From Nitrospira sp. SB0662_bin_26 (GTDB taxonomy: Bacteria > Nitrospirota > Nitrospiria > Nitrospirales > UBA8639): a DNA stretch of 38,326 bases. The stretch spans positions 1-38,326 of the forward strand of contig VXOF01000014.1 in NCBI GenBank assembly GCA_009840285.1, in the 5' to 3' direction. Shown here one piece after another: positions 33,643 through 37,183 of the stretch. The translations under genes and the position numbers were made by a program. The notes beneath the pieces were generated by a model, which saw nothing but the letters and a program-made list of their open reading frames with translations, was not told the origin of the DNA and did not search any database. The stretch's first letter is position 1. Each line of letters begins with the position of its first letter.

Positions 33643-33650
33643 TGCTTGTC
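33643..33650 (+). repeat. Left 8-bp target-site duplication of the transposon
   Basis: TGCTTGTC directly abuts the left end of the element and is repeated at 37176-37183. Eight bases fits the IS1 family. Confidence 0.9.
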
Positions 33651-33672
33651 GGTAGTGTCTCAGTTTGAATTT
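33651..33672 (+). repeat. Left terminal inverted repeat (22 bp)
   Basis: It begins GGTAGTGTCTCAGTTT and matches the right end without mismatch. The transposase stop codon (TGA, minus strand, 33660-33662) lies within it. Confidence 0.93.
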
Positions 33673-34550
33673 CTCTTTTTGTACGGTCCCCGCTTTTTCG
33701 GTTCAGGTTTCCGAGCGTCAATCAGATTCAGCACGTCCTCCCATTCCCACACGTGATCCGTCAAACTCGCTTGCATGGCCGGTGTCACCCGCAGGCTTTT
33801 GTGAATCTTCACGAAATTGTAGAAGACGAAGTACAGGGCCAGCGCATGGCAATGGTTGTCGATCTTCTTAGAGAAGGCATTCGTCAAGCGGGTGAACCGT
33901 CGTAGACTCATTCTCATGGTGAGGTTGTGCCGCTCCACATGAGAAGTTGAGACGTGCTTTTTCTCTGGATTGCCTTGAACCCGTTGCTTTCGTGCGCCCT
34001 TACACACGGACGGGCTGTACTTCCGTTCCGGTCCCGGCTCTGGTGATTCCCCGTAGAGTTTCACCAGCTGAGCATAATCAATGTTATTCCCGAAGGCGTC
34101 TTCTACGGCTTCCAAATACACCTTGAGTCCGTCCGTCGTGAGTTGAACGCGGGTTGCCAGACGCGATTCCAAATCCCGCATGAACTCCGTGGCGTACCCC
34201 GCGTCCCGATCCCCCACCATCCACGACAAGATCAGTTTCGATTCACTCTCAAGGGCTGTCCAAGTCCACACATCACCGGCTTGCTCAGGGGCTGCCTGGG
34301 CTGCCCTCACGTTCTTTTGCTTGGCGTAGCAGAAAGACCAGATCTCATCGCATTGCACTTTGGAAGCGTGGACGTTGCGGACATGCTCATCGTGAAAGGC
34401 TTCACAGGCTTGGCCCGCTTCCACCAAGAGTTTCGTCACCGTGTTGATGCTCACGCCCACAATACGCGAAATTGTCCGCATGCTGGAGCCCTCAACCAAC
34501 ATGGAGAGAATCTGAATGCGCTTCGTATTTGGCAATGTGTTCATGTTCAT
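33660..34550 (-). CDS. IS1-family transposase (single ORF)
   Basis: A 296-residue DDE transposase made as one continuous frame, unlike classic IS1, which needs a frameshift between InsA and InsB. The N-terminus has an HTH (about 13-45; I-L-S-M-L-V-E-G...I-S-R-I-V-G-V-S). The catalytic triad is D68 in Q-C-D-E-I-W-S, D140 in T-T-D-G-L and E206 in S-H-V-E-R-H-N-L, followed by the family's F-S-K-K helix and N-F-V-K-I-H-K-S-L. The basic tail ([12 protein letters not shown]) probably binds DNA. The stop lies in the inverted repeat. A consensus promoter sits so close to the start that the mRNA is probably leaderless, beginning at Met1 or Met3 (34544). Confidence 0.93.
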
Positions 34551-34551
34551 T

Positions 34552-34580
34552 ATTATATGAAATTAATGCTTGAGTGTCAA
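34552..34580 (-). promoter_or_regulatory. Consensus sigma-70 promoter of the transposase
   Basis: On the minus strand a perfect TTGACA (34575-34580) and a perfect TATAAT (34552-34557) are 17 bp apart. The first ATG follows the -10 by one base and the second in-frame ATG (34544) is near the expected start site. Confidence 0.85.
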
Positions 34581-34581
34581 G
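34569..34581. promoter_or_regulatory. Candidate operator 1 (dyad over the transposase -35)
   Basis: CTTGA-GTG-TCAAG is a perfect dyad with 5-bp arms and lies over the -35 box of the transposase promoter. A bound repressor would block transposase transcription. Confidence 0.45.
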
Positions 34582-34614
34582 AAATATTTTCAGTTTATAT
34601 GATTATTATAACTT

Positions 34615-34633
34615 TATAATATTCAAACTTGAA
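34615..34633 (+). promoter_or_regulatory. -10 box and candidate operator 2 of the XRE-protease gene
   Basis: TATAAT at 34615-34620 points towards the XRE-protease gene, with no good -35 box. Directly after it, TTCAA-AC-TTGAA (34622-34633) is a perfect dyad that uses the same TTGA/TCAA half-sequence as candidate operator 1 and covers the likely transcription start. Confidence 0.4.
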
Positions 34634-34665
34634 AAGATAGGGGCGACAGGCTATTATGGCTACAA

Positions 34666-35802
34666 ATGAAAAATGACCCCGAACCAGATATTGGAAAGCA
34701 TCCAGGCGCCTATCTCCGTGATCTGCTTAACGCGAGAGGATTAACGCAACGCGACCTTACCTCGATTCTTGGGATAGCGCATACTGGCATAAATATGATC
34801 ATTGCCGGGAAAGTCGGAATTAGTGCAAAGATGTCAAAAGCCTTGGGACTGGCATTGGGGTATCCCCCATTACATTTTGCTGCTCTCCAAACCGCCTATG
34901 ACGTAGCGCGAGCAGCTAATCCAGATGAAATGGTTTCAATTCGCGCCAAGATGCATACGACATATCCGATACGATCCATGATGAATCGTGGCTGGCTTCA
35001 TGATTCAGATGCCGAAGATATCCAGCGACAGCTTGCTCTGTTCTTTGAGGTCAACGATATGGGAGAGATCCCATATCTCGCTCACGCTCCGAAGAAAACG
35101 CGCTATGAAGAAAAAGACATCCCGCCAGCGCAGTTAGCGTGGCTATTCAGAGTCAAACAAATTTCAAGATCAATGGCTGTACCGCGCTACTCCGCAAGGG
35201 CTTTAAAGAAAGCTATTGAGCAGATGAAGCGCATGCGTATTGCTCCTGAAGAAGCACGACATGTACCAAGGCTTCTATCAGAGTGTGGGGTGAGGTACGT
35301 TATCGTTGAACCATTGCCAAAATCGAATATCGATGGTGTATGCCTATGGTTGAACAAAGACACTCCGGTAATCGGGATGTCTGCACGGTACGACCGTATT
35401 GATAACTTTTGGTTTGTTCTCAGGCATGAATGCGAACACGTGCTTCGAGGGCATGGCCTAAATTCTGATCAGTGGATGCTCGACGCCGACATTGAGGGGC
35501 AGCGAGCCGATCCAAATAGCGATCTCCAGGAAGAAGAACAACAAGCGAATGACGCTGCTGCTGATTTCTGTGTTCCGTCAGATGCCTTGAAATCATTCAT
35601 CAGGAGAAAGCATCCCATATATGCCGAACAAGATGTCTTGGGGTTTGCGCAAATCCACGGCATCGCTCCAGGATTGATCGTGGGACAGCTTCAACACTAT
35701 TTGAAGCGATACCAATATTTACGTCACCATCTGGTCAAAATACGACACATAGTGCTTCCGAATTCCATTGTGGATGGATGGGGGTATGTTGCCCCTTCTT
35801 AG
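34666..35802 (+). CDS. Fused XRE-HTH regulator and ImmA/IrrE (M78) metalloprotease
   Basis: A 378-residue cytoplasmic protein. Residues 12-70 form a Cro/C1 HTH (L-T-Q-R-D-L-T-S-I-L-G-I-A-H-T-G-I-N). The C-terminal half carries H254-E-C-E-H258, the HEXXH zinc site of ImmA/IrrE peptidases, and an E-E-E-Q-Q-A-N-D-A-A-A-D-F helix (from 289) that supplies the third ligand in this family. In ICEBs1, separate ImmR repressor and ImmA protease form an induction switch; here both are in one chain. HigA-like antitoxins with M78 domains are an alternative reading. A 6-codon frame (ATG 34656 to TGA 34676) overlaps the start and may couple translation. The downstream 158-residue gene follows after 14 bp. 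Confidence 0.88.
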   Translation: MKNDPEPDIGKHPGAYLRDLLNARGLTQRDLTSILGIAHTGINMIIAGKVGISAKMSKALGLALGYPPLHFAALQTAYDVARAANPDEMVSIRAKMHTTYPIRSMMNRGWLHDSDAEDIQRQLALFFEVNDMGEIPYLAHAPKKTRYEEKDIPPAQLAWLFRVKQISRSMAVPRYSARALKKAIEQMKRMRIAPEEARHVPRLLSECGVRYVIVEPLPKSNIDGVCLWLNKDTPVIGMSARYDRIDNFWFVLRHECEHVLRGHGLNSDQWMLDADIEGQRADPNSDLQEEEQQANDAAADFCVPSDALKSFIRRKHPIYAEQDVLGFAQIHGIAPGLIVGQLQHYLKRYQYLRHHLVKIRHIVLPNSIVDGWGYVAPS

Positions 35803-35816
35803 AGGAGGTAAAAAAG

Positions 35817-36293
35817 ATGAGTACAAAACATGAACGTTATCAGAAAGTGTGGAGGCAGTACCAACTTGAACATGAACACCGCGAAGCAACTGCGAAGGAA
35901 GTCGCCGAGTGGGCCGTTAAGAAAAAATACCTCGTCGCTCAGCGCATTAATCCACTCGACGATCTTGCCTCGCAAATATCACAGGCAATGCGTGCGGAAT
36001 ATAAGACCGATTCACATGGGCGTCGATTTCGCGCCAATCACGCACGTCGTGCGTTGCGAGATGGAGAGCAGATCACCATCTGGGCCACGATGGAACATGC
36101 ATCTCATGAGCATATGGAAGTGGCATTTACGCAACGAAGGCAACAAATCGTCAGTGATTGTCTGCAACTGAAAACTGATGTCGATGTGTACAATGATCAC
36201 ATCTCTGGGAAGGGAAATCCAGAAATCCCGCTAGAGTTGGACTTTACGGAAGACGTAGCAGAACGACAAGCTTTTAGGGAAGATGCTGCGTGA
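35817..36293 (+). CDS. Passenger protein of unknown function (158 residues)
   Basis: A hydrophilic, strongly charged protein with no signal peptide or membrane helix. The first 45 residues (R-E-A-T-A-K-E-V-A-E-W-A-V-K-K-K-Y-L) could be a winged-helix-like fold. R-A-N-H-A-R-R-A-L-R follows, and the C-terminus is acidic (ELDFTEDVAERQAFRED). I do not recognise the family. The start is the ATG at 35817 with a full GAGGAGG nine bases upstream, stronger than the site of the XRE gene, so it is probably made in excess. It is co-transcribed with the XRE-protease gene, which makes a partner, substrate or toxin of that system the natural guess (inference). Confidence 0.8.
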   Translation: MSTKHERYQKVWRQYQLEHEHREATAKEVAEWAVKKKYLVAQRINPLDDLASQISQAMRAEYKTDSHGRRFRANHARRALRDGEQITIWATMEHASHEHMEVAFTQRRQQIVSDCLQLKTDVDVYNDHISGKGNPEIPLELDFTEDVAERQAFREDAA

Positions 36294-36317
36294 CGCAGCA
36301 AAGTATCAGGATTTTTT
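36284..36317 (+). terminator. Possible terminator between the convergent passenger operons
   Basis: TGCTGCG-TGA-CGCAGCA (36284-36300) is a perfect 7-bp stem whose loop is the stop codon of the 158-residue gene. A T-run follows only about 10 bp later, so function as a terminator is uncertain. Confidence 0.4.
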
Positions 36318-36533
36318 CCATCTGGCATGGGCAGCTAGTCTAGCAATATTGCTTCTCTGCTCTGGCGTCAAGGCTTTTGCTCGTGCTTTGCTTCCCTTGA
36401 GGCCGCCCTTTTGGGCGTATTCCTTCCCGGCCATAGTTTCGTCTTCGACTTCGCCAGTGGCAATCTTCGCCACCTTGATCGCGGTCCCGATCACGTCACC
36501 TGGGCGTTTCTGTCCTGTTGGTCCTTTTGGCAT
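36306..36533 (-). CDS. Small basic KGG-motif-like protein (75 residues)
   Basis: A 75-residue basic protein that begins M-P-K-G-P-T-G-Q-K-R-P-G-D-V-I-G, a sequence style I associate with small proteins encoded beside XRE regulators (from memory, not checked). The second half has G-G-L-K-G-S-K-A-R-A-K-A-L-T-P-E-Q-R and I-A-R-L-A-A-H-A-R-W, resembling the repeated motif of bacterial KGG or RNA-binding-like proteins. No enzyme motif is present. The ATG at 36533 has AAGGA five bases upstream and lies inside the 3' end of the membrane protein gene (38-bp overlap), so the two are co-transcribed and probably coupled. Confidence 0.78.
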   Translation of the reverse strand: MPKGPTGQKRPGDVIGTAIKVAKIATGEVEDETMAGKEYAQKGGLKGSKARAKALTPEQRSNIARLAAHARWKKS

Positions 36534-37110
36534 AGAGCTTCCTTAGCCGTAAATTTGTTCGTTTGTTCTCGTCTTTGATTTGGACGAACAGAAGAGCGAT
36601 GAAAATAGTACCGATCGTTAGACCAGCCCCCCATCCAACCAACCCCACAACATCCCAAAAATCGGCGTTGCGGGGTAACAAAAATTCAAGAAGCACCGAT
36701 ACGGTGGCGAGAAAAAACGCGGTTATTTGGGAGTGGAGCTTCCATGAGGGAAAATCACGGGAGAGAGCTTGAAAAATGGAAAAGGGAATTTCCATATACT
36801 CGTCGTCAGAGGGTGGAGGACCCTCATCGCCAGGAACACGCTCAGAAAGTTTTTTAAGCCTGTTCTCTATCCGAGCCAAAACCGTATATTCAACGGTTAA
36901 GCCGAGCCAGGCAGACAAAAGGTAGAGGATCAGGGCGGTCGTCATTAACCACGAAACGCGCCCGGCGCTGGGAGCAAACATCGACCCAACAAAGGCAATG
37001 GCGCCGACAGAGAACCCAATAATCAACCGATTCAATCGCCGATATTCTTCCCCATACTCCTCGTAGGTTTGGTGTGAGCGATCAATAATACGAGCAAACT
37101 GGTCCGTCAT
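36496..37110 (-). CDS. Four-helix membrane protein (transposon passenger)
   Basis: A 204-residue protein with a soluble N-terminal helix (H-Q-T-Y-E-E-Y-G-E-E-Y-R-R-L-N). Four transmembrane segments lie near residues 29-47, 54-75, 125-146 and 153-178, with a charged loop between TM2 and TM3 (E-N-R-L-K-K-L-S-E-R). The tail is basic. The layout recalls small membrane effectors with a cytoplasmic helical lead (for example SLATT-type), but I cannot assign a family. The start is the ATG at 37110; a TTG extension to 37161 would run into the inverted repeat. TACAAT (37117-37122 on the minus strand) ends six bases before the ATG, so a leaderless transcript is likely. Confidence 0.75.
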   Translation of the reverse strand: MTDQFARIIDRSHQTYEEYGEEYRRLNRLIIGFSVGAIAFVGSMFAPSAGRVSWLMTTALILYLLSAWLGLTVEYTVLARIENRLKKLSERVPGDEGPPPSDDEYMEIPFSIFQALSRDFPSWKLHSQITAFFLATVSVLLEFLLPRNADFWDVVGLVGWGAGLTIGTIFIALLFVQIKDENKRTNLRLRKLYAKRTNRTETPR

Positions 37111-37153
37111 ACGCGGATTGTAACACAACGGGGCGGGAAAAGAGAGAACCTGC

Positions 37154-37175
37154 AAATTCAAACTGAGACACTACC
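37154..37175 (-). repeat. Right terminal inverted repeat (22 bp)
   Basis: It is the exact inverse of 33651-33672 and ends ...GAGACACTACC at 37175. Confidence 0.93.
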
Positions 37176-37183
37176 TGCTTGTC
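37176..37183 (+). repeat. Right 8-bp target-site duplication of the transposon
   Basis: TGCTTGTC, identical to 33643-33650, directly follows the right inverted repeat. Confidence 0.9.

Follow-up and report, generated by a model that had tools for sequence, protein, structure and literature searches.

A passenger-carrying IS1-related transposon

The window (the whole stretch of DNA analysed, 38,326 nucleotides) contains a 3,525-bp IS1-related transposon at positions 33651–37175, which is bounded by perfect 22-bp terminal inverted repeats (GGTAGTGTCTCAGTTTGAATTT at the transposase end, 33651–33672, plus strand; far end at 37154–37175, minus strand) and flanked by two copies of the 8-bp target duplication TGCTTGTC (33643–33650 and 37176–37183), in line with the terminal repeats and 8–9 bp duplications of the IS1 family. 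It encodes an IS1-related DDE transposase of 294 aa (33660–34544, minus strand), a fusion of an XRE helix-turn-helix (HTH) domain with an ImmA/IrrE (M78) peptidase (34666–35802, plus strand), a third gene (35817–36293, plus strand), a small GGKARA-type core protein of about 73 aa (36312–36533, minus strand) and a probable membrane protein (36496–37110, minus strand). The latter is uncharacterised, with no match in searches of curated families and with homologues in the related element L035 and the remnant L193.

The transposase starts at the Met codon at 34544, not at 34550 (the MN.L start is invariant in relatives), and consists of one uninterrupted ORF, i.e., an InsA/InsB programmed frameshift is not present. 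It scores above the gathering threshold of the Pfam DDE_Tnp_IS1 model (26.7 vs. 24.1 bits, partial match over 200–240); because its score against the NCBIfam IS1 equivalog model (74.3 bits) is below the cut-off of 100, we file this protein, by its sequence a divergent IS1 relative, only as IS1-related. A structure model includes N-terminal HTH helices, and is poor outside the HTH (mean pLDDT 51).

The XRE-ImmA fusion, whose HECEH peptidase motif is intact, matches the Xre-peptidase component B of PD-lambda-2 (PD-Lambda-2_B, PADLOC E-value 3.1e-41), and the third gene sits in the place expected of component C, with no match to the PADLOC model or elsewhere in the libraries. No gene for the HigB-like component A was found between the transposase and the XRE gene (34602–34666), and it is likewise missing from 9 other element loci (10 of 16 examined). 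Judging from these matches, the window cargo is a PD-lambda-2-like antitoxin-peptidase module without the HigB gene, with a putative anti-phage role. In E. coli, the B protein of PD-lambda-2 is toxic by itself, an effect that A neutralises (PMC9519451), so regulation of XRE-ImmA may matter in a special way where A is missing.

The transposon is a single copy in its own genome, and a same-genus relative has two copies, with transposases 94% and 91% identical to that of the window and with different cargo. A scan yielded 80 further loci, mostly from Alphaproteobacteria, and many more relatives are present (570 or more in total). The 46 elements that could be delineated, most of them flanked by an 8-bp duplication, span about 2.2–4 kb; no bare insertion sequence is among them, and their cargo includes RosmerTA, PD-lambda-2, SocA/Panacea, AAA proteins, ClpP-like proteases and PtuA-like proteins. 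All 46 encode a GGKARA-type protein, and full-length GGKARA genes in related genomes nearly always adjoin this transposase, with exceptions that include remnants: decayed nested remnants in L193 (1560–6676) have no transposase and retain membrane protein, GGKARA and HigBA-like genes. In L194 (3804–4892 and 5207–5467), a GGKARA gene near a contig end lies beside what is, by eye, an apparent retron-type reverse transcriptase, possibly the retron cargo of a remnant element. The C-terminal part of the GGKARA protein matches the start of phage protein family phrog_2384, and GGKARA-like sequence begins longer cargo proteins in L042–L044. A description of this family of passenger-carrying IS1 relatives was not found among the matches from a search of open-access literature.

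Promoters, dyads and a cargo junction in the spacer

Upstream of the transposase, the 121-bp spacer carries an exact TTGACA-17-TATAAT promoter that reads from 34580 to 34552 on the minus strand (−35 at 34575–34580, −10 at 34552–34557) and is the single exact match within the whole window. Dinucleotide shuffling of the spacer produces a perfect promoter in 0.05% of cases (P = 0.0005), i.e., it is not expected by chance. Because its −10, in a position shared with relatives, is only 7 nt before the start codon, the transposase mRNA is predicted to be leaderless. The XRE gene has a predicted TTGAAA-17-TATTAT promoter (34629–34657, plus strand). Both divergent promoters (−10 elements at 34552–34557 and 34652–34657) thus put the predicted start at or adjoining the ATG, suggesting leaderless mRNAs, and the same holds for the transposases of many relatives.

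The original prediction was of a divergent control region in which the passenger XRE protein would repress both its own gene and the transposase through two dyads with a common half-sequence. The first dyad, CTTGA-GTG-TCAAG (CTTGAGTGTCAAG, 34569–34581), does lie over the transposase −35; the second, TTCAAACTTGAA (34622–34633), is also present but covers the predicted XRE −35, 32 bp upstream of the ATG (34666), and not the gene start. Shuffling the spacer (a stretch of 75% A+T) gave 1.25 expected dyads with arms of 5 and loops of 3 or less, vs. 3 observed (P = 0.16), and bare dyads are not remarkable against such a composition. Two dyads both with TTGA/TCAA arms are rarer (P = 0.0055), and this shared TTGA comes from the −35 hexamers that lie beneath both of them (TTGACA at 34575–34580, TTGAAA at 34629–34634).

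The longest dyad in the spacer, TATTATAACTTTATAATA (8-2-8, 34604–34621, P about 0.013), and an inverted-repeat-like site, TCAGTTTATA (34590–34599), had both been overlooked. The 8-2-8 dyad is the better candidate for an XRE autoregulatory operator: TTCAAACTTGAA is not conserved among relatives, including those with PD-lambda-2-type cargo, and three loci without HigB (L123, L131 and L149) contain dyads of 8-2-8 or nearly 8-2-8 form, differing in sequence, at the position that corresponds to 34604–34621, a pattern that would be compatible with an autoregulator of drifting specificity. Support combined over the PD-lambda-2-type cargo promoters is weak (P = 0.08), and we do not claim a palindrome common to all of them. 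Autoregulation of the XRE gene would be plausible.

Homology to the two closest relatives takes in the transposase with its promoter, ends at 34601 (L034) or about 34630 (L035) and resumes in the right-hand module, with unrelated cargo in between, so that cargo has been exchanged at about 34600 between near-identical transposases. The junction (about 34600–34602) falls inside the predicted control region and separates the two dyads, and this region thus combines one half from the core with another from the cargo. In several other elements (L055, L089, L104, L106, L121 and others), cargo that points at the transposase stops 46–50 nt short of its start codon, and this near-constant distance marks a precise cargo border.

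A probable operator conserved irrespective of cargo

Broadly, the relatives share one layout upstream of the transposase: TGAAC-TTT-ATGCTTGACGCTAAGCAT-AAAAGTTCA-TATATT, then ATG. The operator consensus ATGCTTGACGCTAAGCAT is fixed in position over the −35 in about 100 relatives, with transposases 52–94% identical to that of the window, and its arms match at 10 or more of 12 positions in 67 of 103 elements vs. 1.6% of shuffles (the elements are related by descent, so these counts are not independent events). Information content is kept in non-promoter bases (right arm AAGCAT) and falls to background beyond about −55. The window's copy, TTTCTTGACACTCAAGCAT (34566–34584, minus strand), contains the dyad at 34569–34581 and is imperfect (arms 10/12, spacing 7), while the nearest relative has full arms (ATGCTTGACAAGCAAGCAT), and at the transposase promoter of a Nitrospirales group the half-sites are spaced by 8. 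The CTTGA-GTG-TCAAG dyad is thus most likely the window's version of a transposon-family operator, conserved for a reason unrelated to the XRE gene. Spacing varies among elements (6, 7 or 8), which would be odd for a rigid dimer site and counts against a core operator.

A near-identical palindrome, ATGCTTAGCGCTAAGCAT, recurs in many relatives at a second promoter, either about 50–70 bp in from the far end or ahead of the GGKARA gene, where it overlaps an inferred −10. Allowing up to 3 mismatches, we found 26 matches in GGKARA-upstream and cargo DNA but a single one across 394 kb of host flanks, and the transposase ORFs (91 kb) had none. Both sites reach at least 10/12 in 19 elements. The window's own clade lacks the far-end operator, which, like the imperfect window copy, speaks against the core-operator reading.

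Candidate readers of the operator

Because the operator is conserved irrespective of cargo, recurs at the far end, is rare in host flanks and belongs to elements that all encode a GGKARA protein, we consider it likely that the dyad is a core-encoded operator of the transposon family, not read by the cargo XRE. On these comparisons the control site of the original prediction is real and conserved, but its proposed regulator appears to be wrong. The operator occurs at about the same rate in elements that carry XRE-ImmA (18/25) and in those that do not (49/78), and among delineated elements it is not significantly associated with any detected XRE-type HTH cargo (12/18 with vs. 10/23 without, P = 0.21), with 10 elements retaining it where no such HTH was detected. 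The XRE protein as sole regulator was rejected, as the operator shows no association with XRE cargo.

A switch of the ImmR/ImmA kind, in which the cargo XRE-ImmA would repress both divergent promoters via the two dyads, is the strongest of the alternatives and still improbable. The divergent layout (shared by PD-lambda-2-type cargo in all 16 loci where both it and the transposase were located), the intact peptidase motif and the paired TTGA arms are what such a switch would have, and in the three closest copies dyad quality fits the idea (12 and 10 in two with HTH cargo, 8 in L035 without, n = 3). However, the operator also occurs without XRE cargo and at the second promoter, the junction parts the two dyads, the second dyad is not conserved, and the −35 hexamers explain the common TTGA.

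We give slightly less credence to a transcription factor of the hosts, present in both Alphaproteobacteria and Nitrospirota: the palindrome is conserved across phyla, yet it is almost absent from the flanking host DNA (394 kb), and the hosts span distant phyla. Least probable is a role in RNA, as a hairpin insulating the transposase from cargo or host read-through transcription, since, although outer arms (TGAAC..GTTCA) extend the dyad and the predicted hairpin is stronger where cargo reads toward the transposase (mean −7.6 vs. −5.1 kcal/mol, P = 0.009), inner-dyad conservation is equal for both cargo orientations (P = 0.76), the far-end left arm lies in the inferred −10 and hence would not be transcribed, the window dyad is upstream of the predicted start with divergent cargo, and the outer-arm TGA is often the stop codon of cargo ending 46–50 nt upstream. 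An RNA family search gave no match.

For the core operator, the reader is most likely the transposase or the GGKARA protein, and the data favour neither decisively. The inverted-repeat-like site TCAGTTTATA (34590–34599, plus strand), a candidate transposase-binding site, matches the inner inverted repeat TCAGTTTGAA at 8 of 10 positions. It is fixed at −54/−55 in 18 of 43 elements, the window included, and reaches at least 8/10 in 11 elements, whereas the opposite strand gave one such site and the flanks none; no covariation with each element's own inverted repeat was seen (P = 0.33). By analogy with InsA in IS1, this site would favour the transposase. The case for the GGKARA protein is that it is universal and that the palindrome often lies in the operon encoding it. 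The model of this small protein has three helices (pLDDT 79) and no recognisable DNA-binding fold (sole PDB match at E = 8.3), and GGKARA subtype against operator quality gave P = 0.09 (n = 7), a comparison that we set aside.

Taken together, 34552–34600 would serve as the module that carries the transposase promoter in an IS1-related transposon with passenger genes. A protein bound at the operator would lie over the −35 and switch off the promoter, a strong and probably leaderless one that would open perhaps only upon entry of the element into a new cell. This protein would most likely be core-encoded, either the transposase via its N-terminal HTH, aided by the inverted-repeat-like site upstream, or the small GGKARA protein found in every delineated copy. 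The exchangeable XRE is probably not the operator reader, and the control exerted by XRE-ImmA (an antitoxin-peptidase of the PD-lambda-2B type) is probably confined to its own leaderless promoter, via 34604–34621 and/or 34622–34633. What these in silico comparisons show is the operator itself, where it sits, how widely it is kept, that it does not follow the cargo and that the junction is modular; binding, repression, the identity of the regulator and leaderless transcription are inferred.

If so, these elements would be compact self-regulated shuttles for toxin-antitoxin and anti-phage modules, which would be interchangeable and would move between Nitrospirota and Alphaproteobacteria. Cargo would be inserted at a fixed border, next to a conserved operator that is blind to it, such that defence genes could be exchanged with transposition control undisturbed. 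It is tempting to speculate, as a tentative idea that we hold to be rather less likely than its opposite, that the GGKARA protein (roughly 75 aa) is a new kind of transposition regulator controlling its own and the transposase promoter in a two-operator circuit, with defence modules swapped in between; accessory factors of transposition would then have gained a new class. We find this family, with its two-operator layout, of greater interest than the reading first put forward.

Comparison with known systems

ICEBs1 has an ImmR/ImmA switch made of an HTH repressor and an ImmA-type protease (described in PMC10440598). The window likewise pairs an HTH with an ImmA-type protease, but here the two are fused in one protein within exchangeable cargo and the transposase operator is independent of XRE-ImmA; operator conservation argues against binding of a mobility-gene operator by an ImmR/ImmA-type HTH here. 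Among defence systems, PD-lambda-2 (PMC9519451) has the same order of an Xre-peptidase fusion (PD-Lambda-2_B) and then a third gene, whereas the window lacks the HigB-like A and its third gene has no PADLOC match. XRE-ImmA antitoxins of the RosmerTA type (RmrTA; PMC10440598) are cargo of sister elements, although the window cargo matches RmrA weakly (E = 5e-4).

Tn3-family transposons also carry toxin-antitoxin modules, and in Tn3 the core TnpR represses divergent promoters (PMC7157771). In both cases toxin-antitoxin genes adjoin the transposition module, but the transposase family is another, cargo here differs from copy to copy, and no resolvase or res site was seen.

A further comparison is with IS1, in which InsA is autorepressing, InsA/InsB are encoded and the weak promoter overlaps IRL (PMC12428005). 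The window element resembles IS1 in its IS1-related DDE transposase with an N-terminal HTH, its 8-bp duplication and an apparently core-encoded repressor acting on the transposase promoter. It differs in having one uninterrupted ORF instead of InsA/InsB, a promoter that is internal and strong by consensus rather than weak and overlapping IRL, and an operator that is a palindrome of its own; it also carries passenger genes, and its core encodes a small additional protein.
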